From assembly GCA_017513095.1 (NCBI GenBank), contig JAFWDJ010000030.1, positions 1 to 46,353 on the forward strand: 46,353 nucleotides of DNA, in the 5' to 3' direction. Below the pieces are notes generated by a model. It was not told the DNA's origin and ran no database searches. It saw only the letters and a program-made list of their open reading frames with translations. Position numbers and translations under genes: made by a program. Below are positions 17,098-39,969 of the stretch, piece by piece. The DNA comes from Clostridia bacterium (GTDB lineage: Bacteria; Bacillota; Clostridia; Oscillospirales; RGIG577). The first letter of the stretch is position 1. Each line of letters starts with the position of its first letter.

Positions 17098-19137
17098 TCA
17101 CGCTTCGGGGACTATTATATTATTCGCCCAATACGACTTTTTTTCGTCTTTTCTCTTTAAATAAAACTTAATTCGGTATTTCCCGGGCTCAAGGTTTTCA
17201 AAGACGCACCCGGGCTCGTCGCTGTAAGGCAATTGAGCCATAAGCCGCCCGTTTTTTTCGAGTTGAAAGGCCATTTGAACACCTTTTGTTTCTTTTAAAT
17301 CCACCTTGAAATTTATTCTGTTCTTCGAAACGGTTTCCACGGCCGAATCGACAACCGCATCAAGCGCGGACGGTTTGCCGTTTATGCTCAGCCCGTTGCC
17401 GACAACTCTCGGCGCAGCGGGAAGATCCCACGGTATTACTATGTTGTGTTCGTGAAAGCTCACGACCGTATCGTTGTGCTTTATCAAGCATTTTACAAAA
17501 TACGTATCCGCAGGGACACCGACAAACTCATGTGACGGACTGTTTTTCCATCCGGTCGTCTTTATCGGTGCTTTACCTCGCTGACCTATCTGAAATCTGT
17601 ATATATATTCTTTTTCGGAATCGTTGTTTATCTCGACATTGAATATGAGCTTTCCTTCCTGCAGCAGAGTCTTTACGGAATTTTCCTCCTGCCGCAGCAT
17701 ATCATCATAATCCCTTACACGATAAACCAATACTCTTTGTACAAGGCCCACGTCCTTACGTATTATATCCTTCGGCCTGGGTATATGTATCACATTTTTA
17801 TAGTCTTCGACGTGATAATTGTTTCGCGAAAACTCCTCTGCTGCCAAACGTGCCTTTTCCGACGAGCCGACCCCTACGCCGTCGCTGTCCGCAAGGGGTA
17901 TCCTTATACTGTTTTCGCAAAGCTCTCTAAACGTAGTTACTTCAAAATCGGGGCTGCTCCTCAGAAACTCAAGAAGCTCTCCGAACTTTTTCTTCTTTTC
18001 CGTGTCGCCTCCGAAACACATAAATCTGTTATACTCATAGGACACTATCGGTTCTTTTCCGGATATGCGGTTTGTATCCAAAAACGAAAAGCTGTGAAAC
18101 ATAAGCTGGCAATAGGGAAAATCGTCTCTGCTTTTAAGTTCGGACAAAGCACATATTATATCTTCAAGAGACAGGCTGTCCAAATCCAGCTTTCTTATTA
18201 TACCGCTCGAGTCTGCCACAGGCACAATGGGAAACTCCGTTATCCCATCTATGCTGCATACCTGAGATATCGTCGGCCATGCGGTAATTGCATTGTTTTT
18301 CTGCAAATAAAACAGGCTTGAATCAACCTTTATGCCGATCTCCTTCAATGCTTTCAGGGTATACTCATTTATTCTGTATGCCCCGGATCTAAACGATATA
18401 GGTCTTTCGTTTATGATTCTTTCTATGAACCTGCATCCCTGTTCAAGCCGCTCCTTCTGTTGCTCAAACGTCAGCTGATCAAGCCCGAATTCGCTGTGAG
18501 CAAAAGCGGCGTCACATTCCTTTTCGTGACAGTGAAGCCCTACTTCATGACCGCGCACATGCATATCGGCCATCACCCGGCTCATGTAATTCTCATACCC
18601 GGGGCCAAACGAATACGCTTCATACACGTTTACGAAGAACACGCCTTTCATGCCATGCTCTTCAAGAATATCCATTATGGCGTTTACACCGAAGTTCTCT
18701 TCTATGCCCCATTCGGTAAGATCGCCGCTTATCCTTAACGGCGTACCGTCGCGGTTATGCTCTGTATCAACAGTAATAATTACCTTCATCGGCGGCTTTT
18801 TTGCAGTTTTCTCATTGTTTTTAAAGCCTCGGCTTAAGCGCGTTCTCTTTTCACTGACCGAAAAAGGCTCTTCTTTCCTGTACCATCGGCCGTCGCGCAC
18901 ATCAGTAATCACGAACGCAATAACGTAATCTCCGCCGTCGCAAAGCTCAAAGGAGCATGACGTATCATATCCAGGCTCGGTCTTCACCAAAAGCAGGCCG
19001 TTATAATAAAGCTCGTACGTAAGAGTAAAGCCGTCGTTTAAATTTCGGATATCCACGCTGTAATCAAGCCGCCAGCCGTCAATATTTATTTTAGTCCCAT
19101 AATATAAAATTTCCTCGAGAAGCTCTTCACATGGCAC
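17098..19137 (-). CDS. Polysaccharide deacetylase (NodB-like) flanked by locus-specific beta-sandwich modules
   Basis: About 679 residues. The central domain (about 115-420) is a polysaccharide deacetylase: TVDTE with the metal/catalytic Asp, GHEVGLHCH with metal His residues, and RSGAYR. It would remove acetyl groups from an N-acetylated glycan. One locus-type module precedes it (ending near GDYVIAFV) and two follow (DTYFVKCL and GKYRIKFY). No signal peptide or membrane segment is seen, so it appears cytoplasmic. The frame is open from GTG 19176, but GTG 19137 has a GGAGGT site 7 nt upstream and is preferred; the upstream GTG would sit only about 11 nt from the predicted transcription start. 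More AT-rich than the arg genes. Confidence 0.82.
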   Translation of the reverse strand: MPCEELLEEILYYGTKINIDGWRLDYSVDIRNLNDGFTLTYELYYNGLLLVKTEPGYDTSCSFELCDGGDYVIAFVITDVRDGRWYRKEEPFSVSEKRTRLSRGFKNNEKTAKKPPMKVIITVDTEHNRDGTPLRISGDLTEWGIEENFGVNAIMDILEEHGMKGVFFVNVYEAYSFGPGYENYMSRVMADMHVRGHEVGLHCHEKECDAAFAHSEFGLDQLTFEQQKERLEQGCRFIERIINERPISFRSGAYRINEYTLKALKEIGIKVDSSLFYLQKNNAITAWPTISQVCSIDGITEFPIVPVADSSGIIRKLDLDSLSLEDIICALSELKSRDDFPYCQLMFHSFSFLDTNRISGKEPIVSYEYNRFMCFGGDTEKKKKFGELLEFLRSSPDFEVTTFRELCENSIRIPLADSDGVGVGSSEKARLAAEEFSRNNYHVEDYKNVIHIPRPKDIIRKDVGLVQRVLVYRVRDYDDMLRQEENSVKTLLQEGKLIFNVEINNDSEKEYIYRFQIGQRGKAPIKTTGWKNSPSHEFVGVPADTYFVKCLIKHNDTVVSFHEHNIVIPWDLPAAPRVVGNGLSINGKPSALDAVVDSAVETVSKNRINFKVDLKETKGVQMAFQLEKNGRLMAQLPYSDEPGCVFENLEPGKYRIKFYLKRKDEKKSYWANNIIVPEA

Positions 19138-19373
19138 CGAAATTACCTCCGTTGACTGTCTGCGCACTCGTGCCACAGCAGGCTTATTTTATAATTATAT
19201 CGTGATACCGCCGGATGATCCACGCTTCTGCGGATTCTCTCGGTTTCACGTAATGCTTTACCGTCCTGGACATTTCATATCACATCGCAGAGTAAACAGT
19301 CTTTTAACACATTATTTTTACAACAAAACGCACGAATCGCAATGGCGCTTATGACATACCAAACCTTAGAATG
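19138..19373 (-). promoter_or_regulatory. Intergenic region with possible promoter for the deacetylase gene
   Basis: A perfect minus-strand TATAAT lies at 19199-19194, about 57 nt before GTG 19137. The -35 at correct spacing (TGGATC) is poor. The rest of the gap is AT-rich and shows no gene. Confidence 0.35.
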
Positions 19374-20924
19374 TTATTCTACTATTATTTTATGAAAACT
19401 CTTTGATGCTCTGTATTCATCCCACATAATAAATAGCTTAACAGAATACGTTCCACTCTCAAGATTATCAAATGTACATGAAACATTCGATGAATAATCA
19501 AAATGTCGTATTCTTTTTTTATCTACCTGGAGCTGATATGCAAAAAGCATATCCTCCCCCGATGTCCCCACATTCTTAACGTGTACTTGTATGCATTTTT
19601 CTTTCACAATTATCTCGACGGGATATTGTTTGAATATCTCAACGACCTCTTCCTTCGTTGGTACCTTAAATATCTTCTTTTTGCGCTTAGCTTTTGCAAT
19701 GAATGTAATTTCTCTGTCCGCTTGCCAGCCATCCCTGTTATCAGTAAGCGTCCATTTTACGCGATATTCGCCTTCTTCATAAAGCGGCAGCTTTACGCGC
19801 GTTTCATGCGTATCCTTTACACTTTTAATCATGTCGCCCTTATGATAGAGCTCATAAGTCATAGTATAATCGTTGCTTGACAGATGCATATCGGCAATTA
19901 TGTTCACATCCCAATCCTCTATCTCATAACAAAGAGACTCAAACGAAAAATCTCCCGCGCCCACGAGCTTGGGCATCGACGTATACGTAAATGCGCCCTC
20001 GCCCTCGAGTACGAGCGTATACGTGCCGCGCCCTTCGAATAAAAGCCGCGTATCTTCGTCCACAGAGGCCCTCTTTTGAGGGCTCTGCGCAAAGTATGCC
20101 GAAATGTGCCCCCTCCGCGTACGCTTGTCTGCGTGAAGAAGCACGCCGTCGTCCGTCCATTCGGCGCTCACGCCGTACATTATCCCAAACAGCTTGCTGC
20201 GCACGAAATCGGGATTGAACTCCGCAAGACCCGAGTGCGACTTGATGTTATCATTAATCGTGATATCATTTCGCTCATCGTCAAGGTCGAGCAACTTCAA
20301 AAATGGCTCGATATGCACGGGAAACTGATTATCGTTATGACTTGTAAGCAGATGAATATGCGTCTCTTCTTTGCGCCGGGAAAGAATATCAAACATAACA
20401 CCGTCAAGCGCTTCATATGCTGCTTTTTTGTCGTGACTTCCTATCATAATATCAAGCGTGCGCTGATGGTTACTTGTCGTGTCTCCGTTTCTGTTTAAAA
20501 AAGTGGCTATCTTAGTCTGCGGCCCCATGCAAAGCACATGACCGTACCCTCCGCGCAGTCCGAAATAAAGGCTTGCCGTGCCTCCTTTCGATGAACCTAC
20601 AGTTATAACGCGTTCTTTTTTTATTCCAAGTCTTTCGCGTATGCTTTCTATTATTTCAATCACTGTATCAGCCGCGCCGAAATCCATGTTTTCGCAAAGA
20701 TAATACGTCCCCATTTCGCCGAGAGAGTCCTGTAAAAAAAGCTTATGGCACGGCACGTCCTTCAGCACTCTCATAAAGCTATACTGATGTTTTATCGGAC
20801 TGTTCGCTGCCGGTATTGCGGAAAACGTGCAGATAAGCCAGGCATCCTCCCCTGCGTCAAGATATTCGTCGAGGATATAACCCATTTTATACTTCCCCTG
20901 TGAAAAACATTCATTTATCTGCAT
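19374..20924 (-). CDS. Alpha/beta-hydrolase-like protein (Asp2-like) with two C-terminal modules
   Basis: 516 residues. The first 260 or so look like an alpha/beta-hydrolase with nucleophile elbow GSSKGG (110-115, Ser112), preceded by an LFLQDSLGEMGTYYL segment and followed by a histidine-bearing HLLTSHNDNQFP string that may supply the triad. It reminds me of the Asp2 family, whose members O-acetylate glycans; this is resemblance, not proof. Two locus modules follow (GEYRVKWT and GTYSVKLF). No signal peptide. The frame is open from ATG 21014, but ATG 20924 has AAAGGAG 9 nt upstream while the longer start has none, so 20924 is preferred. Substrate unknown; probably edits the polymer. Confidence 0.7.
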   Translation of the reverse strand: MQINECFSQGKYKMGYILDEYLDAGEDAWLICTFSAIPAANSPIKHQYSFMRVLKDVPCHKLFLQDSLGEMGTYYLCENMDFGAADTVIEIIESIRERLGIKKERVITVGSSKGGTASLYFGLRGGYGHVLCMGPQTKIATFLNRNGDTTSNHQRTLDIMIGSHDKKAAYEALDGVMFDILSRRKEETHIHLLTSHNDNQFPVHIEPFLKLLDLDDERNDITINDNIKSHSGLAEFNPDFVRSKLFGIMYGVSAEWTDDGVLLHADKRTRRGHISAYFAQSPQKRASVDEDTRLLFEGRGTYTLVLEGEGAFTYTSMPKLVGAGDFSFESLCYEIEDWDVNIIADMHLSSNDYTMTYELYHKGDMIKSVKDTHETRVKLPLYEEGEYRVKWTLTDNRDGWQADREITFIAKAKRKKKIFKVPTKEEVVEIFKQYPVEIIVKEKCIQVHVKNVGTSGEDMLFAYQLQVDKKRIRHFDYSSNVSCTFDNLESGTYSVKLFIMWDEYRASKSFHKIIVE

Positions 20925-21098
20925 TTTGCCTATCTCCTTTGTCGTTTCTTTAGCATTGTGTCCTCTGCGCATAATAATTCGGAAAACAATATAAGTGTTT
21001 CCATCAACAGTCATTTCATATTAAAGCATACACATTCGACGCGGAGAAAGAGTATCTCTTCTTTCGGATGAATTATTATGCGTACCTTTGTCATCATT

Positions 21099-23351
21099 TC
21101 ATTCTGCAAACTGTCTGAGATAATAAAAATACATAACTTTATTAACGAAAATCCTGCCCATTCTTGAAAGCGTCTTTTTTTCCAGTATATTTTCTTGCGC
21201 CCATAAAATAAGCTCTTTTCCGCAAAGCTTTTCAATCTCCCCGTCATAAGCATTCAATAAATCAGCCAACCCATAGCGGAACCACTGCATTAACCGTTCG
21301 TTATAATACGAGTTTTCGTCTTTGATTGCTTCAATCTCCTGTTCGCTTAATGAACACTTTTTTAATTGTCTGTTTTGCAGACTATATTCTTTTCTTTCTT
21401 GAAATATCGCTTCTTTTTCGCTTCTTATTTCGTCTATTGTCATGCTTGGTACTTTATTGATTTGCCCCGCTTGTACCAAATCATCCATCGCTTCATTGTT
21501 GCCTTCATATTCATAGGGAAGACTCGCTATGCTTGGATTCAATGCATACATTAAATCAAAGCGTATTTTCAAGTCGGGAAGACTCCTAAACGTTATAATC
21601 TTAAGTCTGAACATGTCTTTACTTTGACACGGCCCCCAATTTGGATTATCTAATTCGGGAGCTAAAAACTTCCCCATATGCGTACCATTTCTATAGAACA
21701 GATAGTGAATATCATATTTTTCTTCTAAAGATCTGCCGGGCAGTTTTTCTATTTCTCTCGTCATGTAGTATTCATGCGCTTGTTTTAATGCATTGCTTTT
21801 TATAGTGGATAACGGCTTAGAATCTGTCCATCTAATTAAATCTTCGATTTTATTAAACCGCTTATCTGTATGGATCATAAGCTTGGCATAAACTGCTCTT
21901 CCACATATGTCTCCGCAAGTACCGTCAAGTCTGAGCATATTATCCGTGTTGGCCTTATTGGAAGCACCTTCAAATATATACCATTCGCCAAACAGTGAGC
22001 TCATGGCGTTTGTCCATGATTCACTTTGTCTGATGGGCTGCTCTTCAATCGGCCATGCCTTATATTCCAACCCGGCGCTTTTTCCCACATAATAGCCAAT
22101 CAATACATCGTCCAGCTGATTCACTTTTTCAACCGAAAAAATTCTGCTTTCCTTCTCCTTTTTCAATTCGTCGTCTAAACAAGAATATGCCGCTATTACT
22201 TCTCTGGTATCAAGACCGCCTGTAGCATCAAAGCTGATTCTTTTAAAATGGTCGTTTTTATAAATAATCCTTACATTATCGACTACTTCTTTCTTTGCCT
22301 TTAAGACTAACTCTTCATACTTTTCCTCTTCAAACGGCTCTTTAACTCTTAAATCGTCATATATCTCCTTATTTAAAATCTTTACTCCGCTTTTTGTTAT
22401 TGAAAAGCATTCGTCTATTGGTTGTATATATGTATTTACAATCTCCATATCGCGCGCAAAATTCTGCTGATACGGCATATCGTTTCTATAAAGGTATGCC
22501 ATCATTTTTTTGGTGTTTACCTTCATCTCTATTTTGTACTCGGACATGGCAAGCAACAGAAGATGATATCTGTTCGATACAATAAAACTATCATTTGCAT
22601 CGTCTTTATAATAATAGAGCTTCGTCATACCAAAGTAGTCGGTTCCTATATAAATCTGCTCTTCGTCTTGATATATCAGGAAAAAGCAGCCCACAGAATC
22701 TGTTAATAGCCGTGGATCGTCTAACTTGTATGCATCGTTTTGCCCAAAAACAAACTCAGTATCCGTTCTGCCTGTACCTCCGAAAACAAAATCTACTTTT
22801 TTATTCTTCGTAACAGGCACAGTACTTATCATGCAAATATCCTTTAATAAACCATCGTTAAAATTCGGAAATACATGAAAACGCATGTTTTCTTTGTGTC
22901 CCAAGTTGTACAGCGATGTGGGATCCATATTATAACAAAGGCAAAAGTCTGCAAAGGGATATTTACGTTTATAGAAGCTGAGTTTCGGCGGCAAAGCAGA
23001 CGTATCCCTATTCTCTTTAATCAGCTCCAGTTTTTCTGCCAGCTGGTTGTCCTTGTCAACAGTAATATAGATTGCTCCGCTCTTTTTCGCAAATTTGCCT
23101 GTTTTATTTCTTACAAAAACCCGCACATAAAAAGTTTCCACTATTTGTTGGCTATAGAATTCTTTTAAGTCCCACGTTCTTGTATTATCACTGTTATATT
23201 TTTCGTCCTTATAAACAAGATTGCTTTCTTGATAAAGATAGAAAAAATATGTCGCGTCACTTACCGGTTCGTCAAATGATACCCATGCTTTTAATATACC
23301 GTTTTCACAATCAGTATTTATCGTAAATCTTTCAATGGCCAATGTCTCCAT
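21099..23351 (-). CDS. Asparagine-synthase-like protein with N-terminal module
   Basis: 750 residues. An N-terminal locus module (about 5-100), then a region resembling a class II amidotransferase domain (about 130-320, GCFFLIYQDEEQIYIGTDY) that lacks the N-terminal Cys nucleophile, then an ATP-pyrophosphatase domain with PP-loop SFDATGGLDTR (373-383; canonical SGGLDS). Such proteins in glycan loci can amidate uronic acids; since WecC would make ManNAcA, its carboxylate is a plausible target. That is inference. ATG 23351 follows AAGGAGG. The gene is visibly AT-rich: 21361-21420 holds 17 G+C in 60, against 37 in 60 at 3541-3600 in argH. This suggests separate acquisition. Confidence 0.72.
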   Translation of the reverse strand: METLAIERFTINTDCENGILKAWVSFDEPVSDATYFFYLYQESNLVYKDEKYNSDNTRTWDLKEFYSQQIVETFYVRVFVRNKTGKFAKKSGAIYITVDKDNQLAEKLELIKENRDTSALPPKLSFYKRKYPFADFCLCYNMDPTSLYNLGHKENMRFHVFPNFNDGLLKDICMISTVPVTKNKKVDFVFGGTGRTDTEFVFGQNDAYKLDDPRLLTDSVGCFFLIYQDEEQIYIGTDYFGMTKLYYYKDDANDSFIVSNRYHLLLLAMSEYKIEMKVNTKKMMAYLYRNDMPYQQNFARDMEIVNTYIQPIDECFSITKSGVKILNKEIYDDLRVKEPFEEEKYEELVLKAKKEVVDNVRIIYKNDHFKRISFDATGGLDTREVIAAYSCLDDELKKEKESRIFSVEKVNQLDDVLIGYYVGKSAGLEYKAWPIEEQPIRQSESWTNAMSSLFGEWYIFEGASNKANTDNMLRLDGTCGDICGRAVYAKLMIHTDKRFNKIEDLIRWTDSKPLSTIKSNALKQAHEYYMTREIEKLPGRSLEEKYDIHYLFYRNGTHMGKFLAPELDNPNWGPCQSKDMFRLKIITFRSLPDLKIRFDLMYALNPSIASLPYEYEGNNEAMDDLVQAGQINKVPSMTIDEIRSEKEAIFQERKEYSLQNRQLKKCSLSEQEIEAIKDENSYYNERLMQWFRYGLADLLNAYDGEIEKLCGKELILWAQENILEKKTLSRMGRIFVNKVMYFYYLRQFAE

Positions 23352-23407
23352 ACCAATGCCTCCTTGTTTAAGAATTAGATGTCATATTTAGTTGGCAGAC
23401 GTTTTTA

Positions 23408-23527
23408 TTAAATATGTGCCTTTTCATGCTCAAAATCAACGGCCAAAAATGTGCCGTATATTGCCTCAGGCGAAAAGCTTTCGCCGTCGATTTCGCTGTA
23501 TAATATCGTTTTTTTCGGCCAGTCCAT
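23408..23527 (-). pseudogene. 39-codon remnant resembling the C terminus of the heparinase gene
   Basis: Starts at ATG 23527 after GGGGGAGG and ends at TAA 23408. Its SPEAIYGTFLAVDFEHEK aligns with VPEARCGTLLAVDFAGEK near the end of the neighbouring heparinase protein, but stops about ten residues earlier. It looks like the leftover 3' end of a third heparinase unit that has gained, or kept, a ribosome site. It could be expressed as a tiny protein, but is more likely debris of tandem duplication. Confidence 0.55.
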
Positions 23528-23563
23528 ATTAACCTCCCCCGCGTATATCCCCGCGTTTTGGGC

Positions 23564-27415: not shown

Positions 27416-27994
27416 TTACGATACCTCCACCGTATTGCTCTTAACGGAAAACTTGCCTTTGCTGCCGTTTATAAACACCTTGACGGAATATGTGCCCTTT
27501 TTCTTCGGATAATAAAGAAACGTCCTGTCGGGAAGATACGGGCTTCTGTACTCCGTATCGGGCTCGCCCTCTTTGTATATATACCACGCGTATTCCATAT
27601 CGTCCGTGATATCTCCCTTGACGGTCGCGATTATCGCGGGATTTTCCATCCCCTCGAGGAATTCAAGCGATACGGAAGCGTTCTTCTGAGGCTGCTCCTT
27701 TGCGGGCGCCAAAAGCCATGCCTTTTTCGCCGTGAGCTTATATTCCGAAACCTCGTTTACCTTTTCGTCCGTTTCCGTATTCTTCATGAACGCCTTTATC
27801 GTATAAACGCCCAGCTTTTCCGCCTTATACATGATAAAGCTCTCTTTTACGTAAGGCGACTTGAAAACACCTCCGTCGGTGTCGGTTATATAAAAGCAGT
27901 ATTGATACTTGTCGCCAAGCTCGTCGGGCTCCGTCTTAATGAGCAGAGTTCCGTCCCCGCGCAGCGCAAAACAGTTTACTTCCTCTATTTTCAT
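27416..27994 (-). CDS. Two-module protein A (stand-alone beta-sandwich pair)
   Basis: 192 residues made of two copies of the locus module and nothing else: GVYTIKAF ends the first core and GTYSVKVF the second. Each has the YxFY or YAWYI strand and a following aromatic-rich strand. No catalytic motif, signal peptide or membrane segment. It is a paralogue of the next gene upstream (28040-28606) and more distantly of 34982-35590. A binding or adaptor role is inferred from the absence of an enzyme domain. ATG 27994 follows a GGGGCGG site. Confidence 0.75.
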   Translation of the reverse strand: MKIEEVNCFALRGDGTLLIKTEPDELGDKYQYCFYITDTDGGVFKSPYVKESFIMYKAEKLGVYTIKAFMKNTETDEKVNEVSEYKLTAKKAWLLAPAKEQPQKNASVSLEFLEGMENPAIIATVKGDITDDMEYAWYIYKEGEPDTEYRSPYLPDRTFLYYPKKKGTYSVKVFINGSKGKFSVKSNTVEVS

Positions 27995-31036: not shown

Positions 31037-34000
31037 TTACTTCTGTCTTACTTCCTCGGCAAGGGAACGCGTGTTGCTTATAAATATTATTTTATCACGG
31101 GTGACGGTAATATACAATACATCATCCGAAAGCTTTTCCTGCCCCTTGAGCATAAACGCCCTTACCTTATAACTGCCCGCGGCCAGCTTGGAAAAATCAT
31201 ATGTAAACGTTCTGTCGCTTTCATACTTTGTTACAAACACCTTTTTATACGTTTTCGAGTCGTAAAGCACCGCCCATGCGTACTGATCCTTGCCCTCTTC
31301 CCCGCTGTAATTCTTCAGCGCCACGGTAGCGCCGTCCGTCTGCTTATAGCGGATATCAAAAACTGCATGTGCGTTCTTTCTCTGCTTTTCCTCCTCTATC
31401 TGCGCCGACAGCTCCTCGATCGTTGGCATGGGGCGCTGCTTGGCCTCGATAAACCTGGCGCTTACAAAATTAAACGCCTCCTCGTATTTTTCCTCGCCGC
31501 AAAGCCGCGAAAATTCATTTATTATCTCGTCTGTATTCTTGTAATACGGCGCGTACATTTTGAGTATATCCCATACTATGCGCGTACACTCAACGGGCTC
31601 GCTCGCGCTGCTCAGCCGCTTGAATATCCAGCCGTTTACGTAAACGTCGTTTCTCACGCGCATATATTCCTCAAGGAAGCCGGCGCTCTTAAGCCAGTCG
31701 ATCTTCGGCTGCTGCAAAAGCATGAGCTTCTCAAAAAATCTGCGGCTGACTGTGTTCGTGACCGAACCGCTCGTCTGCGCGTAATAGATGTGTATAGGCA
31801 CTTCGATCGTCTTGATGCGCTGAGCCGCCATCAGTATCTGCCAGCAGAACAGCGTGTCCTGTCCCGCAGCTCCCGGTACCTGCTCAATGCCGTTTTCCAT
31901 AACTAAGCTGCGGCGTATCGCCATCGCCTGTATGCTTACCGCGTAAAAATCGGCGGGGCTCTTAAGCTCCGAAAGGCCGTGCTCGAACATCGTCTTTCCC
32001 GTTATCTTATTGAACTGATAACAGTAGTTGAAAAGCATCGTTCTGTAGGTGCATCTGTAAATATTGCCGAAAGCGATATCGAGGTCCTCGTTCTTAGCGC
32101 AATCATAAAGACGTGCGTAGCCGTCGCATATGGCTTCGTTGTCGGGATCCAAGAACGTGATATACTCCGCCGACGCAAGCTCAACGCCCTTGTTTCTCGG
32201 GCGCGAAGCCGAGCCGCTTCCGCCGTCCTCAAAGGCATATCGCCTGATGTTCGGATAGCGGTCGCAAAGATACGTTTCGATCTTAAGCGTGCGCGCATCG
32301 GTCGAGCCGTCGTCCACAAGGATTATCTCCATATCGTCGAACATCGAGCTGCGGCGAAGGCTTGTGATGCATTTTCCGTAAAGGTGCGCCCCGTTGTTGT
32401 ATACGGGCACGATGACCGATAAAAGATACGGCGTCTCGCGCACGGGCTTCGCGTGCGTGCCCTCTCTGTACGAGAAACGGTCAATGCTGTATCCGTTTTT
32501 AAGCTCTCCCGCCTCGGGCGGCGCCGCAAAGAAGCCGGCGTCATACGCCTCGCGCCAGAATACCGTGCGGTACGGGCTCTTCATCTGGTTTACATAATTG
32601 TGTTCAACGCCCTCCGCGAGCGTATCGTCCTTAACGTATGCGTCCTTCGTTATATAGTCGCAGGCCGTATATTTAAAGCCGTTTATCATGTCCTCAAGGT
32701 AAAACTCGCCGTAATACGCGCCCGCGTCGAACCACGTCACCATGTCGTAGCCCGAAACGATATCCGCACTCACGTCGGACTGCGCCAAAAGCGTCTTATT
32801 CTCATAAGTCTGGCGCTCGAACGAAGCCTTTACGCTCTCGTCAAGCGTTTCCGCGATAACGAGCACGCTTCTGTCGGCGCACGCCGTATCTATACCCGTC
32901 GGCGCAAGAAGCTCCTTTATCCTGTCGAAGCAGGTGTGTCCCGTCATAACGGAGCGTATTCCCGCTATCTGATGTTCATAGCGCTCCTCATCCGTAAATC
33001 CGCCTAATATCTTATCCACCTCAAGCGACTCATGCGCCATAAACACCGTAGGATGCACGTTGTTCACGCCCACGCTGTAATTCGACAGAAGCAGCACGCC
33101 CGCCGCCTGAAGCTCAAACGTGCGGTTCGCAAACATCGTGTCGCTGTTCGTTACAGAGTTTATGTTTATCGCCCAGTCGAACTGCTTGTGAAGCTTTTGA
33201 AGCTTCTTATGATCTACCGCGGGCGACACGAATTTTCTGTATTCCCACGGATAACGGTACTTGTCGTTGCCGTAGTTCCTGTCCACTATGTGAAGATCGT
33301 AATCGGAATTTATAACCCCCTGGAACATTGAAGAAAGCTCATTGCATCGTTTCGGATATTTTTCCATCCAGGAGCCCGAGAAAAGCACAGTCTTGTCTTT
33401 CTTTTCATTGTAAAAGCCTATAGGATTATGCATAGCGGGGTTTATGCCGAACATAACGTCGTAAACCTTATCGTGGCCGCAGTCTTCCTTATAATACGGC
33501 ACACATTCCGCTGCCGATGTAAACACGTAGTCGCACTGTTTTGCGTAATCCAAAAAGCGCTCGTAGTTCGGCGGATCCTCCTTCGAATAGAAAATAGTGG
33601 GTATGGATCTTTCCTTGCACATTGATATAAGATCACTCACCGTTCGGCGTGTTTTCGACTTGAGCTGCGCAAAACCCACCCATTCGTTGTTAAGGCCGCG
33701 CCACGCCGATACAAGCAAAAGCGCGTCTATTTTTCCCTCACTTATCGTTTCCTTATAGTTTTTGGGCGTAAGGTATACGAAATCTGCTGCATCGCATATG
33801 GATTCATAAAAGAATTCATCGGCTATTATGCCTATGCGCTGCTTTACTTTGTTATAATAGCGTATGCCGTTGCTGTCGGGTATCGCCTCAATCGCATCGT
33901 CGTATTTAAATACCCACGATTCAAGCTCCGAAGCGTCCCAATCGTCGGCGGGAGCCGTCTCGAACGGGTCTGCCTTTTTCGGCGCGGCTTTCTTTTCCTC

Positions 34001-34945
34001 CGCCTTCTTCGAGGCCGCCTTTTTCGGGACTGCCGCCTTTGCGTCGGCTTTCTTTGCATCGGCCGCCTTTGTCTCGGCTGCCGTCACAACGGCCGCTGCC
34101 GCGGTCTCTTTCATTTCAAGCTCCTCTGCCGAGGGCAGCTTGTCGAATACCTTTTCCACCGCGGGAAGCTGAGATATCGTTTTTGCCGCCTTGTTCTTCG
34201 AGCGCTTCGCCCAGTAATTGAGCGTAAGCTTGCCCAGCTTTGAATTTGCCAGCGCGTCGTATTTTACCCTGACCTGGTCAAGCTCCCTCTGCTTGCTTTC
34301 CGAGATAGCCTTCTGCGAGGCAAGCTGCGTTTTCAGCTTGCCGTTTTCCGCGGTAAGCTTCTTTTGCTGCGCCTTCGCCTTTTCAAGCTTGTCCTCTGCT
34401 TCGGCCTTCGCCTTTTTAAGCGCGTCATCGGCTTCGGCCTTCGCCTTTTTAAGCGCGTCATCGGCTTTGGCTTTTGCCTTTTTAAGCGCGTCATCGGCTT
34501 TGGCTTTTGCCTTTTTAAGCTCTTCCGCCTCGCCCAAAAGCGCCTCATACGCCTTTTTTAGCTTTTCAAGCTCGGATTCGCGCGCTTCGGGAATAACCGA
34601 CGATTCCGCCCGGATCGCAGCCGCCGATCCGGTCGCAGTTTCGGGTGCGAACTCCGCCCCAGGCGCCGCTGCCGCTGCCGCTTCGATTACGGCCGCCACT
34701 TCGGGGATAACCGATGACGCAGCCCAAATCGCGGCCGCCGGTTCGTACGCGGTTTCCGCCGCGGGCGTACCTGCCTCCACGGGCGCGGCCGCCGCTGCCG
34801 CTTCGATTACGGCCGCCACTTCGGGGATAACCGATGACGCAGCCCAAATCGCGGCCGCCGGTTCGTGCGCCGCTTCCGCCCCGGGCGAATTATTTGTATT
34901 ATTTATATCGTTTTCATTTTTTATGTTATTTTCGTCGTAGGACAT
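31037..34945 (-). CDS. Giant glycosyltransferase: Ala-rich repeats, coiled coil, CgeB-like GT, GT2 and module
   Basis: About 1302 residues. Order: polar start; three Ala-rich repeats of about 40 residues (AAAIWAASSVIPE); a Lys/Ala/Asp 11-residue repeat (KAKADDALKKA type, about four copies) leading into a long coiled coil; a CgeB/DUF3880-like glycosyltransferase (FYSKEDPPNYERF, FTSAAECVPYY, VLFSGSWMEKYPKR, MFANRTFELQAAG); a linker domain; a GT2 domain (SVIVPVYNNG, VDDGSTD, FLDPDNE); and a C-terminal module (GSYKVRAF). Two transferase domains suggest it adds two sugars or one disaccharide repeat. The open frame begins at TTG 34966, but ATG 34945 has AAGGAG 6 nt upstream. No signal peptide. Confidence 0.8.
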   Translation of the reverse strand: MSYDENNIKNENDINNTNNSPGAEAAHEPAAAIWAASSVIPEVAAVIEAAAAAAPVEAGTPAAETAYEPAAAIWAASSVIPEVAAVIEAAAAAAPGAEFAPETATGSAAAIRAESSVIPEARESELEKLKKAYEALLGEAEELKKAKAKADDALKKAKAKADDALKKAKAEADDALKKAKAEAEDKLEKAKAQQKKLTAENGKLKTQLASQKAISESKQRELDQVRVKYDALANSKLGKLTLNYWAKRSKNKAAKTISQLPAVEKVFDKLPSAEELEMKETAAAAVVTAAETKAADAKKADAKAAVPKKAASKKAEEKKAAPKKADPFETAPADDWDASELESWVFKYDDAIEAIPDSNGIRYYNKVKQRIGIIADEFFYESICDAADFVYLTPKNYKETISEGKIDALLLVSAWRGLNNEWVGFAQLKSKTRRTVSDLISMCKERSIPTIFYSKEDPPNYERFLDYAKQCDYVFTSAAECVPYYKEDCGHDKVYDVMFGINPAMHNPIGFYNEKKDKTVLFSGSWMEKYPKRCNELSSMFQGVINSDYDLHIVDRNYGNDKYRYPWEYRKFVSPAVDHKKLQKLHKQFDWAININSVTNSDTMFANRTFELQAAGVLLLSNYSVGVNNVHPTVFMAHESLEVDKILGGFTDEERYEHQIAGIRSVMTGHTCFDRIKELLAPTGIDTACADRSVLVIAETLDESVKASFERQTYENKTLLAQSDVSADIVSGYDMVTWFDAGAYYGEFYLEDMINGFKYTACDYITKDAYVKDDTLAEGVEHNYVNQMKSPYRTVFWREAYDAGFFAAPPEAGELKNGYSIDRFSYREGTHAKPVRETPYLLSVIVPVYNNGAHLYGKCITSLRRSSMFDDMEIILVDDGSTDARTLKIETYLCDRYPNIRRYAFEDGGSGSASRPRNKGVELASAEYITFLDPDNEAICDGYARLYDCAKNEDLDIAFGNIYRCTYRTMLFNYCYQFNKITGKTMFEHGLSELKSPADFYAVSIQAMAIRRSLVMENGIEQVPGAAGQDTLFCWQILMAAQRIKTIEVPIHIYYAQTSGSVTNTVSRRFFEKLMLLQQPKIDWLKSAGFLEEYMRVRNDVYVNGWIFKRLSSASEPVECTRIVWDILKMYAPYYKNTDEIINEFSRLCGEEKYEEAFNFVSARFIEAKQRPMPTIEELSAQIEEEKQRKNAHAVFDIRYKQTDGATVALKNYSGEEGKDQYAWAVLYDSKTYKKVFVTKYESDRTFTYDFSKLAAGSYKVRAFMLKGQEKLSDDVLYITVTRDKIIFISNTRSLAEEVRQK
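34400..34520. repeat. 33-bp tandem repeat coding an 11-residue coiled-coil repeat
   Basis: Inside the giant glycosyltransferase gene. Units of 33 bp sharing TTTTTAAGCGCGTCATCGGC repeat about four times and encode hendecads of the DALKKAKAxAD type, expected to form a long, almost straight coiled coil. Confidence 0.8.
34671..34866. repeat. 120-bp period direct repeat coding the Ala-rich region
   Basis: The 76 bp at 34671-34746 are identical to 34791-34866, exactly 120 bp (40 codons) apart. A third, diverged unit lies around 34581-34640. Identity at DNA level implies a recent duplication or ongoing gene conversion. Confidence 0.85.
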
Positions 34946-34981
34946 AGTCTTCTCCTTATGTGCCAAATCTCGATTTTCGCC

Positions 34982-35590
34982 TTATGCCGTCACCGTAAAT
35001 TTCTCCGACAGACTTGTCTCCTTCTTTTTGCCCGAAACCACGGACAGCTTCACCTGATAAGAGCCGGGCTCCGCAAGTCTGCATACGCACTCCGTATCCT
35101 CGGAATAGCTGAATCTTTCAAGCGGCGTGGTGCTCCCGTTTAAATAGATATACCACGCGAACTTTGAGCCGACCGGGTATTCACCGCTTACCGCGGCATG
35201 CCAGAAGTGTCCGGCAACGTGCGTAACCTTCGGCGGTCTGCCCGTATGCGGCGATACGGCCGCAGGCGCGGGCGCGGGCGCGCCCTTCTTCTTCGAGGCG
35301 AAAAGCATCGGCGAAGTTTCTCTGTCGGCAGTAAAGAACAGCTCGTACTTGTCCTTCTGTCCTATACTGTCATTTAAGGCGTAAGCCTTTATAAGATAAT
35401 TCCCCGGCTCCTTTATCTCATACGCCATAAACGGCTTCATGCCGTATGCGCCCTTGTATATCGTCCTGTCGCCCTTTTTTACGTACCATGCGTACTGAAC
35501 GCTTTTATCCTCGGGAGTATCCACATTGGTTTTGAAAACAAGAGTGCCGTCGCCGTATAAATCAAAAACATCAACGCTTAGTATCTTCAT
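34982..35590 (-). CDS. Two-module protein C (stand-alone beta-sandwich pair)
   Basis: 202 residues, two locus modules (cores GNYLIKAY and GSYQVKLS) joined by a Pro/Ala-rich linker. No catalytic motif or leader. It lies between the two giant glycosyltransferase genes, as if serving both. It is more diverged from the other two stand-alone proteins than they are from each other, but shares their YAWYV or FAWYIY strand and TLVFKTN-type strand. ATG 35590 follows GGAGGT. Function not recognised; a glycan-binding or scaffolding role is inferred. Confidence 0.75.
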   Translation of the reverse strand: MKILSVDVFDLYGDGTLVFKTNVDTPEDKSVQYAWYVKKGDRTIYKGAYGMKPFMAYEIKEPGNYLIKAYALNDSIGQKDKYELFFTADRETSPMLFASKKKGAPAPAPAAVSPHTGRPPKVTHVAGHFWHAAVSGEYPVGSKFAWYIYLNGSTTPLERFSYSEDTECVCRLAEPGSYQVKLSVVSGKKKETSLSEKFTVTA

Positions 35591-35621
35591 ATCCTGACCT
35601 CCATCATGATGTCAAACCGCG

Positions 35622-38600
35622 TTACCCTTCCGTTATGGCTACCGTTCTGTCGCCGCCGACCTTCAAAAACAGCGCGTCCTCCGAGCTCTTTTTCCCGTCG
35701 CCCGCCACCTTGAAGGCTCTCACCTTATAATCGCCGGGACCGAACTTCGAAAAATCATAGCTGAATATTCTGTCCGACGTATATTTGCTGCCGAATATCT
35801 TTTCGTATGTATTGTTGACAGACGCAAGCACTACCCACGCGAACGTATCGCCGTCGGAGTCTTTGCTCATGTTTATGAGCGTTATCGTGCTTCCTTCCTT
35901 GGTTACGTCTATCTTGAACACGCTCTTTTTCTTTACGCCCTTTGAAAGCTCGGCTATGGTGGGCATCGGGCGCTTTCTCGATTTGGGATAAGCCTCGCCG
36001 ATAAGCTCCGCCGCTTCCTCGAAGCGCTCTTTTTTGTTGAGATAATCTATAACGTGGACCACGAGATCCTTCCCGCCGTTATACGGCTCGTACATCGAAG
36101 CCGCGCGCGAAAGCACGGGTATGCACTCGCCCGGTGACTCGGCGTCCTGAAGTCTGTTAAAGAAGTCGCGCTTAATGCGCTCTCCCATAGCGCCCTCTCC
36201 GTAAGCGTCCGAAAGGCCGCGGTCCTCAAGCCAGTAAATGTCCTCGCGACTGTCGGAGAGCGCCTTTTCAAAAGCGGCCGTCTTTACTTTGCCCTCGTAT
36301 GTGTACGCGGCGTATACGGGCATATCCACGGTCTCTGCCGCGTCGGTCGCCTCAAGCAGCCGCCAGAACGGCAGCGTATCGCGCTTTGAAAGGCTGCCGC
36401 GAAGCTGTATGCCCTCGGGGAACGCTTCGTTTAAAAATTCGCGCTTTATAAGCATCGACTGAAGGCTTGCCTCGGGGAAGCCCGCAGCCTTCACGCGCTC
36501 GGCGCGCTCGGCGGAAACGTCGAGCCCCTCGCCGCAGAGCACGGGCTCGCGGTCGAATTCAAAGCCGCGGCCGATAACTACGTCGGCGTTCGTCTCTGCC
36601 GCCTTTTCATACATCGCGGCGTATCCGTCGCATACGGCCTCGTCGCCCGCGTTCAAAAACGCTATATAAGGCGCACCCGCGAGCGCCTCGCCCGCGCGGA
36701 TCATATTTTCGGGCGAAGCCTCCGCCCCGTCCGAAAGCTTATAAAGCGAAATATTCGGATATTTGCGCATAATGAAGGATTCGGCCTTCACAGTCGCGTC
36801 GTCGGCCGCGCCGTCATCTATAAGAAGTATCTCAAGATCAGAGAATATCGAGCTTCGCTTAAGGCTCGCCACACTCTTTGCCGCAAGACGCGCGCCGTTA
36901 TTCGTAACGGGTATGACAACTGATATGAGCGCGCCGCCTGCGGCGGGCGCTTCGGTCGTTCCCTCGCGGTATGAGAATCTGTCGGCCGCATAGCCGTTCT
37001 CAAGCGCCTGCGGCTCGGGCGGGGTCATAAGAAAAGCCGCGTCGTACGCCTCGCGCCAGAATACCGTGCGGTAAGGGCTCTTCATCTCGCCCGTATACGT
37101 ATGCTCGGCGCCCTCTGTAAGCGCGCCGTCCTTAAAATACGCATCCTTCGTTACATAGTCGCAGGCCGTATACTTGAAGGCGTTTATCATGTCCTCAAGG
37201 TAATACTCGTCATACTGCGAATTTCCGTCGAACCAGGCGACTATGTCGTATTCGTTTAAGATCTCCTCCGTAAGAACCTCGCGGGTGATAAACGTCTTAT
37301 CCTTATACGTCTGACGCTCAAAGCACTCCTTTGCGGAATCGCTGTCATCGGCCGCGATGACGAGCGCGCGCCTTACGGGCTGGCTTGCGTCAATGCCCGC
37401 GGGCGAAAGAAGCTCGGCTATGCGGTCGTAGCAGGTGTGTCCCGTCATGACGGAGCGTATGCCCGCTATCTGGCGCTCGTAGAGCTCTTCACCGGTGAGC
37501 GCGCCGAGTATGCGGCTTACCTCCGCGGCGTCGTTTACAATGAACACGGTCGGGTGAACGCGGTTCACGCCGACACTGTAATTCGACAAAAGCAGCACGC
37601 CGCTTGCCTGAAGCTCAAACGCGCGGTTCGCAAACATCGTCTCGCTGCCCGTAACGGAGTTGATATTTACCGCCCAGTCGAACAGCTTGTGAAGCTTTCC
37701 GAGCTTCGCATGCTCCACGGCGGCTGAGGACAGCGAATTATACGGCTCGGGATAATTATACTGCTCCACGCCGTAATTCCTGTCGACGATATGAAGCGAA
37801 TAATCCGAGGCGAGTATGCCGTCGAATATCACCGAAATCTCACTGCAGCGCTTCGGATACTTTTTCATCCACGAGCCCGAGAAGAGCACCGTCTTCTCCT
37901 TGTCCTTCTTATAACAGCCTATGGGGTTGTGGAAGTTGGGATTTATGCCGAACATAACGGACGAAACTCTGTCGTGGCCGCAGTCCTTCTTATAATACGG
38001 CACGCATTCCGCCGCGGTGGTGAAAACGTAGTCGCTCGCCTTTGCGAAATCTAAAAACATCTCGTAGTTCGGCGGGTCCTCCTTTGAATAGAACACCGTC
38101 GGTATGCCCTGCTCCCTGCAGCGCGCGATGATCTTTTGCACCGTGTCGCGCAGCGCGTTGTATTTTCTGTCTATAATAGCACGCAGCACGGCAAGGCCCC
38201 GCCACTCCTCGTGCAGGCCGCGCCATGCTGTAACGAACAGAAAAACGTCTATATTGTTTCGGTCAACGACCTGCTCCCAGTTGTCGGGAGTAATGTATAC
38301 GAAATCCGCAGCCGCGCATATCGACTCGTAGAAGAACTCGTCGCAGATAATGCCCACACGGCAGCCGAGGCGCTTATAATAGCGCGTTCCGCTGCTGTCG
38401 GGTATCGCGGCTATGGCCTCCTCGTAATCATCGAGCCACTGTTTCTCTTTAGGCTCGGCCGCTATATCAAACGGCCCGCTGTCCTCGCTTCGCTCGCCGG
38501 CTTCATCGCGCAGGGAAAGGCGCACGATATACGAGCCCTCCTCCGTAAGGGCGCACGAAAATCCACGCTCGCCCGAAAACTCAGTTTTGAATACGGGCTC

Positions 38601-38747
38601 GTCCGCGCCTGATTTAAGCACGGCCCACGCGGTCATCGTCCCCTCGGGAAGCGCATCCGAAAGAACGGCCAGAAGCTCTCCTTCCTTTGAATAGTCGATC
38701 TCGACAGTAAAAGACTCCGTTTTAAGTGTTGTTTTCATTTCCAGCAT
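35622..38747 (-). CDS. Giant glycosyltransferase paralogue: module, CgeB-like GT, GT2, module
   Basis: About 1041 residues. An N-terminal locus module (core GSYIVRLS), CgeB-like transferase (FYSKEDPPNYEMF, FTTAAECVPYYKKDCGHD, MFANRAFELQASG), linker domain, GT2 domain (SVVIPVTNNG, IDDGAAD, FLNAGDE) and a C-terminal module (GDYKVRAF). It is a paralogue of 31037-34945, but has an N-terminal module instead of the Ala-rich coiled coil. Its GT2 has NAGDE where the paralogue has DPDNE; this variant occurs in other GT2 enzymes, so activity is still possible. The open frame starts at GTG 38756, but that codon overlaps the AGGTGAT ribosome site; ATG 38747 is preferred. Confidence 0.82.
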   Translation of the reverse strand: MLEMKTTLKTESFTVEIDYSKEGELLAVLSDALPEGTMTAWAVLKSGADEPVFKTEFSGERGFSCALTEEGSYIVRLSLRDEAGERSEDSGPFDIAAEPKEKQWLDDYEEAIAAIPDSSGTRYYKRLGCRVGIICDEFFYESICAAADFVYITPDNWEQVVDRNNIDVFLFVTAWRGLHEEWRGLAVLRAIIDRKYNALRDTVQKIIARCREQGIPTVFYSKEDPPNYEMFLDFAKASDYVFTTAAECVPYYKKDCGHDRVSSVMFGINPNFHNPIGCYKKDKEKTVLFSGSWMKKYPKRCSEISVIFDGILASDYSLHIVDRNYGVEQYNYPEPYNSLSSAAVEHAKLGKLHKLFDWAVNINSVTGSETMFANRAFELQASGVLLLSNYSVGVNRVHPTVFIVNDAAEVSRILGALTGEELYERQIAGIRSVMTGHTCYDRIAELLSPAGIDASQPVRRALVIAADDSDSAKECFERQTYKDKTFITREVLTEEILNEYDIVAWFDGNSQYDEYYLEDMINAFKYTACDYVTKDAYFKDGALTEGAEHTYTGEMKSPYRTVFWREAYDAAFLMTPPEPQALENGYAADRFSYREGTTEAPAAGGALISVVIPVTNNGARLAAKSVASLKRSSIFSDLEILLIDDGAADDATVKAESFIMRKYPNISLYKLSDGAEASPENMIRAGEALAGAPYIAFLNAGDEAVCDGYAAMYEKAAETNADVVIGRGFEFDREPVLCGEGLDVSAERAERVKAAGFPEASLQSMLIKREFLNEAFPEGIQLRGSLSKRDTLPFWRLLEATDAAETVDMPVYAAYTYEGKVKTAAFEKALSDSREDIYWLEDRGLSDAYGEGAMGERIKRDFFNRLQDAESPGECIPVLSRAASMYEPYNGGKDLVVHVIDYLNKKERFEEAAELIGEAYPKSRKRPMPTIAELSKGVKKKSVFKIDVTKEGSTITLINMSKDSDGDTFAWVVLASVNNTYEKIFGSKYTSDRIFSYDFSKFGPGDYKVRAFKVAGDGKKSSEDALFLKVGGDRTVAITEG

Positions 38748-38795
38748 TTTAATCACCTATGTTTTAAAAATTAAACACTTTCTGCGATATTTAAA

Positions 38796-38815
38796 AAGGC
38801 CCCGCCTTCGGAATT
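38796..38815 (-). terminator. Possible weak terminator or attenuator after the exporter genes
   Basis: On the minus strand, AAGGC-GGG-GCCTT followed by TTT, just after the ABC ATPase stop. The stem is only 5 bp, so read-through into the giant glycosyltransferase genes is likely. Confidence 0.3.
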
Positions 38816-39969
38816 CAAAGATTTATATCGAACCAGTCGGATGTTATCATGTTTATTTCGCCGTTTGCAAGCATGAAAAGCCTTACCCTGTACGTTCCGG
38901 ATTCTTCGAATGTATAGGTGCTCTCCTGATCATACTTGTACTGCATTCTAATTATGGGATTCTTCTCCCCCTGTTTATATATATACCAGGCAAAGCGCAC
39001 GCTGTCGCAGCGCTCGCCCGCAGCCCTCATTACAAGTCCCCCGTTATCCTTATGCTCAAGCACAAGCTCATATTCGGGAATATCTACGTAAGCCTCGGGA
39101 TTTGCCTCCGTGGTATCGCTCTCCCCGGAGCTTTTTTCCATGCTTTCGAGTATCTTTCTTGCCGCCTCGCCGTCGCCCTTTCTTCTCTGGCGCTCGCGGA
39201 TGCTGTTTACGTACTTTTTTCTCGTGGCGTTGTCAAGCGCGTTGAAGTCGCGCACGAACTTTACGTATTTCGACGTAACGTCCATACAGTTTCCGGCTTC
39301 TCTCACCCTGCCGCCCTCGAGCCACAGCGCCGTATCGCAGAACATTCTCACCTGCGCAATCGAGTGGCTCACAAAAATGATGGTCTTTCCGTTCTGTCTG
39401 AATTCATTCATCTTCGTCAGGCACTTTTCCGTAAACGTGGGGTCACCCACGGAAAGCGCCTCGTCTATAATCATTATATCGGGGTCTATGTTTATCGAAA
39501 TCGCAAAGCCGAGCCTTGAGCGCATACCGCTTGAATATGTCTTTACCTGCTGATATATAAAGTCGCCCAAATCGGCAAACTCAATTATCTCGGGTATTCG
39601 CTCCTGTATCTGTTTATGATCCATGCCGAGCATAAGACCCTTCTGCACTATGTTGTCCATGCCGGTAAGAAACGGATCGACGCCCGCGTTCACGGCTATC
39701 ATCGAGACCTTCCCAACAGTCTCAAGCTCGCCGCCCGACGCCTCCGCGGCTCCGGCAAGTATATTTGCCAGCGTCGTTTTTCCGCTGCCGTTTAAGCCTA
39801 TGAGCGCAAGCGACTCTCCCCGCTTTACGTTGAAAGAAACGTCGTCAAGCGCGTAAAACGACGTGCCGAAAGACTTCGGCAGAAAAAAATCGAGATACTT
39901 CTGCGATTTTTTACTGTATATCTTATATTCCTTTTCAATATTTTTCGCCGTTATCACAAATTCGTCCAT
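38815..39969 (-). CDS. Polysaccharide ABC exporter ATPase (Wzt/TagH-like) with C-terminal module
   Basis: 384 residues. The N-terminal ATPase domain has Walker A GLNGSGKTT (58-66), signature YSSGM (145-149), Walker B IMIIDE (165-170) and the switch VSHS. It belongs to the exporter subfamily that includes Wzt, KpsT and TagH. The C-terminal part (about 293-384) is a locus module with FAWYIYKQG and core GTYRVRLF. In Wzt of some O-antigen systems the C-terminal domain recognises the finished glycan; here the locus module sits in that place. Partner permease is the next gene upstream, 10 nt away. ATG 39969 follows AAGGATCA. Confidence 0.93.
   Translation of the reverse strand: MDEFVITAKNIEKEYKIYSKKSQKYLDFFLPKSFGTSFYALDDVSFNVKRGESLALIGLNGSGKTTLANILAGAAEASGGELETVGKVSMIAVNAGVDPFLTGMDNIVQKGLMLGMDHKQIQERIPEIIEFADLGDFIYQQVKTYSSGMRSRLGFAISINIDPDIMIIDEALSVGDPTFTEKCLTKMNEFRQNGKTIIFVSHSIAQVRMFCDTALWLEGGRVREAGNCMDVTSKYVKFVRDFNALDNATRKKYVNSIRERQRRKGDGEAARKILESMEKSSGESDTTEANPEAYVDIPEYELVLEHKDNGGLVMRAAGERCDSVRFAWYIYKQGEKNPIIRMQYKYDQESTYTFEESGTYRVRLFMLANGEINMITSDWFDINL

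Follow-up and report, generated by a model that had tools for sequence, protein, structure and literature searches.

A surface-polysaccharide synthesis and export cluster in a Clostridia bacterium (Oscillospirales; RGIG577) contains one small Ig-like module in 19 copies, distributed over 12 proteins that are all encoded on the minus strand between positions 17098 and 39969. The window, meaning the whole stretch of DNA analysed, is 46,353 nt long (assembly GCA_017513095.1, contig JAFWDJ010000030.1, positions 1 to 46,353). We propose, with a probability of roughly 0.48, that the module serves in the cytosol as a handle by which the chain-acting enzymes and the exporter bind the polymer, and that it forms a locus-specific branch of the triple-tyrosine domains.

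The locus and its tagged proteins

A Wzm-type ABC-2 membrane protein and an ATPase are encoded beside glycosyltransferase and nucleotide-sugar genes, the arrangement that marks ABC-dependent polysaccharide export. The module bearers are the chain-acting proteins and the exporter ATPase; GlmS, WecB, the UDP-ManNAc dehydrogenase, Wzm and three glycosyltransferases are untagged. Hydropathy shows no signal peptide and no membrane segment in any of the 12 tagged proteins, which fits a polymer built inside the cell and exported by an ABC-dependent route. The polysaccharide is predicted to be acidic and to include ManNAcA. All coordinates below are on the minus strand; module bit scores are from a six-frame profile search of the genome, and LOO denotes the score against a leave-one-protein-out HMM.

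DAC (17098..19176) is a NodB-type polysaccharide deacetylase (Polysacc_deac_1, E 8e-9) without signal peptide or transmembrane segment. It has three modules: copy 1 at the N-terminus (18856..19077; 70.8 bits, LOO 13.5 bits), copy 2 (17431..17658; 75.1 bits, LOO 15.8 bits) and copy 3 at the C-terminus (17107..17325; 80.4 bits, LOO 39.6 bits). HYD1 (19374..21014) has two, copy 1 at 19695..19919 (77.1 bits, LOO 15.7) and copy 2 at 19377..19601 (80.2 bits). By sequence it is a relative, not a certified member, of the NCBIfam family XcbB_CpsF (E 7e-14; 51.8 bits, below the curated cut-off of 125 bits). Its PDB matches are 9hvz (E 4e-8) and the capsule O-acetyltransferase CsaC (6yuo/6yus, E 1.3e-7), with the GSSKGG nucleophile motif of the alpha/beta-hydrolase domain aligned. 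HYD1 also matches Pfam Asp2 weakly, while its relative in genome G915 scores above the Asp2 cut-off. HYD1 thus looks like an intracellular O-acetyltransferase of the CsaC/XcbB/Asp2 kind rather than a hydrolase, and by analogy HYD2 and HYD3 do too, so the label "hydrolase-like" that an earlier note on this DNA had given to the three proteins is better replaced.

HYD2 (28610..29809) resembles alpha/beta-hydrolase-type acyltransferases, with a conserved GSSGGG motif and histidine, and is 79% identical to its counterpart in the locus of a sister species; its single module is C-terminal (28625..28849; 80 bits). Its paralogue HYD3 (29822..31018; 47% identity to HYD2) likewise has one C-terminal module (29840..30064; 77.2 bits). 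The structure model of HYD3 is poor (pLDDT 65), and its Foldseek matches back the alpha/beta-hydrolase fold and nothing finer. ASN (21099..23351) is asparagine-synthase-like, with GATase_7 and AsnB matches below cut-off, and has one N-terminal module (23061..23306; 72.2 bits, LOO 18.5). LYA (23564..27394) comprises two tandem heparinase II/III-fold units (Hepar_II_III_C, E 6.5e-34, two stretches) with one module between them (25343..25564; 75.1 bits), and is probably either a heparinase-fold lyase or an epimerase.

Three small proteins consist of two modules each. S1 (27416..27994), recognised by its profile and LOO matches, contains copy 1 at 27740..27958 (74.3 bits) and copy 2 at 27422..27646 (80.9 bits). 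S2 (28040..28606) contains copy 1 at 28346..28570 (89.5 bits) and copy 2 at 28043..28264 (86 bits). S3 (34982..35590), with copy 1 at 35327..35554 (80.2 bits) and copy 2 at 34988..35212 (82.5 bits), is encoded beside GT1 (31037..34966), a giant bifunctional glycosyltransferase (Glycos_transf_2 and Glyco_trans_1_2) with one C-terminal module (31100..31339; 70.6 bits). GT2 (35622..38756), a second giant glycosyltransferase assigned by family matches, has an N-terminal copy 1 (38460..38684; 69.6 bits) and a C-terminal copy 2 (35661..35897; 70.5 bits). The Wzt-like exporter ATPase (38815..39969; ABC_tran, E 2.4e-20) has a single module at its C-terminus (38821..39048; 88.4 bits); Wzt_C is not among the 15 families listed for it at E<=1, and a distant relation is possible. 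Local gene duplication is evident in S1, S2 and S3, in GT1 and GT2, and in HYD2 and HYD3.

The untagged neighbours are the UDP-GlcNAc 2-epimerase WecB (15835..16953; Epimerase_2, E 1.6e-122), the ABC-2 exporter membrane subunit Wzm (39980..40795; family match, four hydrophobic segments), the glycosyltransferases GT3 (40820..42340) and GT4 (42340..43488), the family-2 glycosyltransferase GT5 (44822..45883), all three by family match, and UGD (43543..44784), a WecC-type UDP-ManNAc dehydrogenase-like protein (TIGR03026, 421.8 bits; PRK11064, 366 bits, below its cut-off). GT4 served as a marker of the locus type in the genome survey.

The module and its surface signature

Modules are only 13-42% identical in sequence to the first or best partner, too divergent to be detected without a profile. 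Leave-one-protein-out HMMs regained all 19 segments, with held-out scores of 13.5-64.3 bits against a top decoy of 10.7 bits over all runs with 3,800 shuffled proteins. Even the lowest scores (13.5-18.5 bits, for DAC modules 1 and 2, HYD1 module 1 and the ASN module) lie above every decoy. A profile built from 39 modules recovered exactly the same 19 copies among the 19 locus proteins of the window; it found no 20th, and none in GT3, GT4, GT5, UGD, Wzm, WecB or GlmS. Six-frame searching of the whole genome gave no further copy in the remaining 2 Mb, the next match scoring 14.7 bits (E 0.04), which rules out a module spread generically over the genome. The earlier note had counted about 19 copies in these 12 proteins, expected a profile to align them above background and likened them to Y_Y_Y or Ig-like families; the count and distribution proved exact, and the other two expectations held.

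The module is about 77 residues long and is modelled as an Ig/FN3-like sandwich (S2 copy 1, model m5ea4d2e37048, pLDDT 91). It is related to the Y_Y_Y ("triple tyrosine", PF07495) and PKD domains but has diverged from them. S2 passes the Pfam Y_Y_Y cut-off of 26.6 bits at 28.5 bits (32.0 for the module alone), while S3 (25.4), HYD1 (22.2), S1 (15.7) and DAC (15.1) fall short of it; 8 of 31 modules match Y_Y_Y at E 0.1, and PRK14081 matches DAC, HYD1, S1 and S2. The three aromatic positions of Y_Y_Y are kept (position 20 aromatic in 33/39 modules, position 36 aromatic in 36/39, position 52 Y/F in 39/39), and with G-x-Y at 50-52 they form the core pattern in common with PF07495 and PRK14081. Among solved structures, the nearest by sequence is the PKD-type domain of the endoglucanase 2c26 (E 4e-5). 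FN3 and cytokine-receptor domains, which bind proteins, are also among the fold matches; the absence of the Wzt domain among the fold matches listed carries no weight.

Core positions are alike in the modules and in generic triple-tyrosine repeats, whereas predicted surface positions differ and are conserved across genera. The modules have in common Y23, K/R33 and F/Y57 and, more weakly, K/R55 and K/R66, residues mostly absent from the generic repeats and placed at the surface by strand alternation. Against a contrast set of only 13 proteins, drawn from weak hits in other genomes, Y23 is present in 67% versus 20% of proteins (p 0.007), K/R33 in 76% versus 25% (p 0.001) and F/Y57 in 86% versus 54% (p 0.006), with K/R55 (p 0.05) and K/R66 (p 0.07) in the same direction. 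The signature is weaker in certain enzyme modules, namely the deacetylase copies and HYD1 copy 1. A module tree separates an S/GT/ABC group from an editing-enzyme group with moderate support, and the basic and aromatic signature is common to both. A surface signature beyond what the fold demands supports a common binding partner of the modules.

Related loci in other genomes

Related loci are present in a sister species and in other genera, with modules on the same kinds of proteins. There the modules adjoin genes for WecB, UDP-ManNAc dehydrogenase, a Wzm/Wzt-type ABC exporter and glycosyltransferases, and the ABC-export context is the same in G001, L061, G915 and G988. The sister locus has the same tagged/untagged division as the window. 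In a survey of 394 genomes of the order, strong modules occur in four, and these four and no others have an untagged glycosyltransferase belonging to this locus. Weak matches elsewhere (22-30 bits; 42.6 bits in G207) lie in other proteins as repeats; several of these proteins are rich in repeats or have an apparent leader. An S3 search of 291 genomes of the class matched only the window's own genome. The clustering with WecB/WecC-type enzymes and ABC exporters foreseen in the earlier note was therefore seen, and the even scatter over unrelated genes that would have told against it was found neither in the organism's own genome nor across the order.

In three of the related loci the exporter ATPase carries no module, which indicates that tagging of the exporter is not essential. 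The idea of a shared tag stands as one homologous module, with a common partner supported by the surface signature, but does not extend to exporters in general. S3 adjoins GT1 in three loci. HYD is fused to LYA in L061, in a fusion without a module, and HYD1 is fused to ASN in G988. Only two or three modules are present in each of G915 and G988, all on editing enzymes, and no S-type protein was seen in the stretches read. The literature offered nothing relevant on triple-tyrosine domains in polysaccharide loci or on repeated modules in capsule synthesis.

A proposed handle for the polymer or for a protein

In the proposed mechanism the modules would grip the nascent acidic polysaccharide. Polymerising glycosyltransferases, O-acetyltransferase-like proteins, DAC, LYA, ASN and the exporter ATPase, with one to three copies each, would all stay on one chain, which would be made, edited and then handed to the Wzm/Wzt-type exporter, while S1-S3, with two modules each, would bridge the chain or form a sheath around it. 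The ligand would thus be the polymer, the signature residues its binding face, and the enzymes would probably work on the chain prior to export. In favour of this reading are the restriction of all 19 copies to the one locus, the division between tagged chain-acting proteins and untagged neighbours here and in the sister locus, and the cytosolic character of the 12 proteins by hydropathy. Aromatic and basic signature residues suit an acidic glycan. Characterised Wzt proteins have a carbohydrate-binding domain at the ATPase C-terminus that recognises the polymer for export (PMC9445017), and the position of the ABC module in the same place favours a polymer handle. Both are beta-sandwiches on the cytosolic side of the exporter; the Wzt domain, however, is a larger jelly roll that forms strand-swapped dimers and is confined to the exporter (PMC9445017), whereas the module here is small, Ig/FN3-like and present on 11 further proteins. 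The kinship of HYD1 to CsaC also counts for a polymer handle, since CsaC, from the meningococcal serogroup A capsule, acetylates an assembled ManNAc polymer (PMC7501274). Both loci make UDP-ManNAc, but CsaC has no module and the remainder of its system is unlike this locus. Counted against the polymer handle are the untagged ATPases elsewhere, the FN3 and cytokine-receptor fold matches and the weak signature of some enzyme modules.

The main rival, plausible though less likely, is that the modules bind each other or a common protein, with S1-S3 as bivalent adaptors assembling a synthesis, editing and export complex, a cytosolic counterpart of cohesin-dockerin pairing. FN3/Ig folds frequently bind proteins, the tree split is as a two-sided docking code might give, and S3 is kept beside GT1. 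Fusion elsewhere of separately tagged enzymes, in L061 without a module, indicates that their proximity matters. A general docking partner is nevertheless missing from the stretches read of G915 and G988, and one signature across both tree groups is less expected of a two-sided code. An improbable reading is that the module has no specific ligand and serves as a structural spacer or stabiliser, as PKD or FN3 domains do in numerous surface enzymes, its number having grown by local duplication. The PKD-type nearest match and the duplicated genes fit such a spacer, but S1-S3 consist wholly of modules and have nothing to space, and the module occupies either terminus or an internal site in enzymes that are unrelated, is limited to one locus type and keeps surface positions across genera that differ in generic relatives. 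Chance or compositional similarity, which the low pairwise identity might suggest, has next to no probability: it is refuted by the leave-one-protein-out scores of all 19 modules, and the confident shared fold model and orthologous copies in other genomes also oppose it.

Compared with the Y_Y_Y family, most modules here score below cut-off, their surface signature is locus-specific, and their hosts are cytosolic polysaccharide enzymes, not sensors or secreted repeat proteins. In the accessory Sec system Asp1-Asp2-Asp3, the intracellular O-acetyltransferase Asp2 is coupled through partner proteins to export of a glycosylated substrate (PMC5578698, PMC7948813). The likeness lies in an intracellular O-acetyltransferase-type protein associated with export, but that system moves a glycoprotein via SecA2/SecY2 without repeated module tags, whereas here a polysaccharide leaves via an ABC exporter.

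We tentatively suggest, at somewhat less than even odds, that the module is a generic, interchangeable cytosolic tag which, with free two-domain adaptors, recruits any enzyme by fusion into a synthesis-editing-export line, so that the polymer could be redesigned in evolution by tagging new enzymes. To our knowledge, capped O antigens, which Wzt reads, are the only case in which it is understood in detail how cells complete polysaccharide editing before ABC export. Were the module a shared handle, it would reveal a modular organisation of cytosolic polysaccharide editing and would offer a simple portable tag for glyco-engineering. The module profile marks such loci in other genomes.

The module and its copies in the locus

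The polysaccharide locus is a run of 19 minus-strand genes, bounded by GlmS (13952) at one end and a family-2 glycosyltransferase (45883) at the other, with intergenic gaps mostly of 60 bases or less and at most 212. Twelve of its proteins, spanning 17098 to 39969, are tagged with a module of about 77 residues. The 19 segments, 12 proteins and per-protein counts of the earlier note were reproduced exactly. In a leave-one-protein-out test (12 rounds), with the profile for each protein built only from segments of the remaining proteins, all 19 held-out segments were recovered at 13.5 to 64.3 bits, the top decoy across all runs reaching 10.7 bits (3,800 shuffled proteins). A 39-module profile returned the same 19 matches among the locus proteins and no module on the seven others. 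Six-frame searching of the whole 1.99 Mb assembly found no further copy, the next match scoring 14.7 bits (E 0.04).

The AlphaFold2 model, built from a 31-module alignment, is a six-stranded sandwich (mean pLDDT 91). Its neighbours in structure comparison are FN3, PKD and further Ig-like domains (Z up to 8.6), none of which stands out. The closest solved domain by sequence is the N-terminal domain of endoglucanase 2c26 (E 4e-5); we take the matched stretch to be a PKD-type domain. Because Pfam Y_Y_Y is the best family (the small two-module protein S2 passes its curated cut-off, the others fall below) and NCBIfam "triple tyrosine motif-containing protein" weakly matches four tagged proteins, the module belongs, judged by sequence, to the triple-tyrosine family as a divergent branch.

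Tagged proteins and the predicted polymer

The tagged proteins include a NodB-type deacetylase, a tandem pair of heparinase II/III-fold units (LYA), an asparagine-synthase-like protein (ASN), two giant glycosyltransferases (GT1 and GT2) and a Wzt-like ATPase (ABC). The N-terminal region of GT1 (31037-34966) has a nearly repeated Ala-rich stretch (AAIWAASSVIPEVAAVIEAAAAAAP), then a Lys/Ala-rich, coiled-coil-like tract. Three more had been labelled hydrolase-like. HYD1 instead has as relatives the XcbB/CpsF capsule family and CsaC, a meningococcal capsule O-acetyltransferase of solved structure, with which its GSSKGG nucleophile motif aligns; the acetylation substrate of CsaC is the assembled ManNAc polymer (PMC7501274). 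A HYD1 relative in genome G915 scores above the cut-off for Pfam Asp2, which has a described role in intracellular O-acetylation (PMC7948813). HYD2 and HYD3 share GSSGGG and an invariant His and have a low-confidence alpha/beta-hydrolase model; purely by analogy, both would be acyltransferases.

ASN (21099-23351) may perform chemistry other than glutamine-dependent amidation, since a module stands in place of the usual N-terminal Cys nucleophile. Its ATP-pyrophosphatase loop reads TGGLDT, versus SGGLDS in G092 and G988. A hydropathy scan of the 12 tagged proteins revealed no signal peptide or membrane segment, and the modules should therefore work in the cytosol. The dehydrogenase of the locus is closest to UDP-ManNAc dehydrogenase; together with WecB it predicts UDP-ManNAcA, and hence a probably acidic polymer.

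Distribution and history of the module

Modules scoring at least 50 bits occur in 4 of 394 genomes of the order (the window's own, its sister species G001, G915 and G988), the next-best genome reaching 29.6 bits. The untagged glycosyltransferase GT4 (E 1e-60) marks the identical four, and the even scatter over unrelated genes that the earlier note had named as refuting was thus not seen. Without the window's own genome the coincidence is 3/393 versus 3/393, or 1/C(393,3), about 1e-7 by simple counting, and about 1e-5 with the sister species also excluded; the bit threshold was set after the gap was seen, and relatedness makes these probabilities optimistic.

The sister species has the same locus with gene order kept: ABC, GT1, the two-module protein S3, HYD3, HYD2 and a single-unit lyase are tagged, and GT5, UGD (the dehydrogenase), GT4, GT3, Wzm, WecB and GlmS are untagged. 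Its module set extends beyond one locus. On contig 31 (L026:2907-6905) a second giant glycosyltransferase with two N-terminal modules adjoins an FkbM methyltransferase, with a classical polysaccharide deacetylase nearby. Contig 22 carries, close to its end (L027:8584-10145), a HYD2/3 relative together with an ORF of 120 residues that has a GT2-type module; a further locus may be cut off there. G002, the third species of the genus, gave no match.

L061, from a more distant MAG labelled Oscillospiraceae, contains UGD, GT4, GT3, Wzm, a tagged GT1 and a two-module S3; its 272-residue ATPase lacks the module, as does a single protein made up of a HYD unit joined straight to a lyase unit. G915 encodes two HYD1-like proteins (one tagged), a two-module ASN, WecB, glycosyltransferases, an untagged ATPase, Wzm, GT4 and UGD. 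Between its WecB and ASN lies a DUF6270 protein (L085:14755-15567), which may be a further chain-modifying enzyme. HYD1, modules and ASN are joined in a single 1,379-residue protein in G988, near WecB, an untagged ATPase, Wzm and GT4, and G092 has a two-module ASN on a 3.6 kb contig. A 1,116-codon plus-strand frame (L087:12542-15889) was rejected as a wrong-strand artefact of mechanical ORF picking; the real gene, which encodes a glycosyltransferase and has 1,098 codons, runs antiparallel to it.

Positional orthology is evident in a tree of the 39 modules. The first domains of S3 cluster with those of S1 and S2, its second domains with the module of ABC, and the GT1 and GT2 C-terminal modules with each other; editing-enzyme modules form the other half of the tree with moderate support. 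This pattern is best explained by an ancestral set followed by local duplication and fusion.

Surface signature and possible roles

The 39 modules were compared with 37 weaker relatives whose host proteins lie outside loci of this kind. In the core (positions 20, 22, 36, 44, 50 and 52) the two sets did not differ. At the protein level, Y23 (p 0.007), K/R33 (p 0.001) and F/Y57 (p 0.006) were enriched in the modules, and K/R55 (p 0.05) and K/R66 (p 0.07) went in the same direction. Strand alternation puts positions 23, 55 and 57 on the predicted outer face of a would-be C'-C-F-G sheet and places 33 and 66 less certainly. With exceptions, the S proteins, ABC, HYD2/3, LYA and ASN all carry the signature Y-[KR]-[KR]-[FY]-K, which also spans genera; the deacetylase copies and the first copy of HYD1 show it more weakly, and its Tyr is missing from the GT C-terminal modules. 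Such a shared signature argues for a common partner over a bare spacer, which is the less likely reading. That partner could be the module itself: docking of modules with one another is the strong rival to polymer binding and quite possible, favoured by the fused enzymes of L061 and G988 and by the split of the tree into two groups.

Exporter-linked glycan-binding domains are already known. A literature search, with most subscription journals outside it, returned nothing relevant on triple-tyrosine domains in polysaccharide loci or on the repeated use of a single module along a capsule pathway; we found no description of a whole cytosolic synthesis-editing-export set tagged by one module. Modules sit on the proteins expected to act on the chain and on the exporter ATPase, and the precursor enzymes are untagged. 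The ATPase module is C-terminal, the same place as the polymer-binding domain of Wzt (PMC9445017). The simplest account, to which we tentatively give a probability of about 0.48, is putative polymer binding, in which the module would serve the chain-acting proteins and the exporter ATPase as a handle on the polymer.
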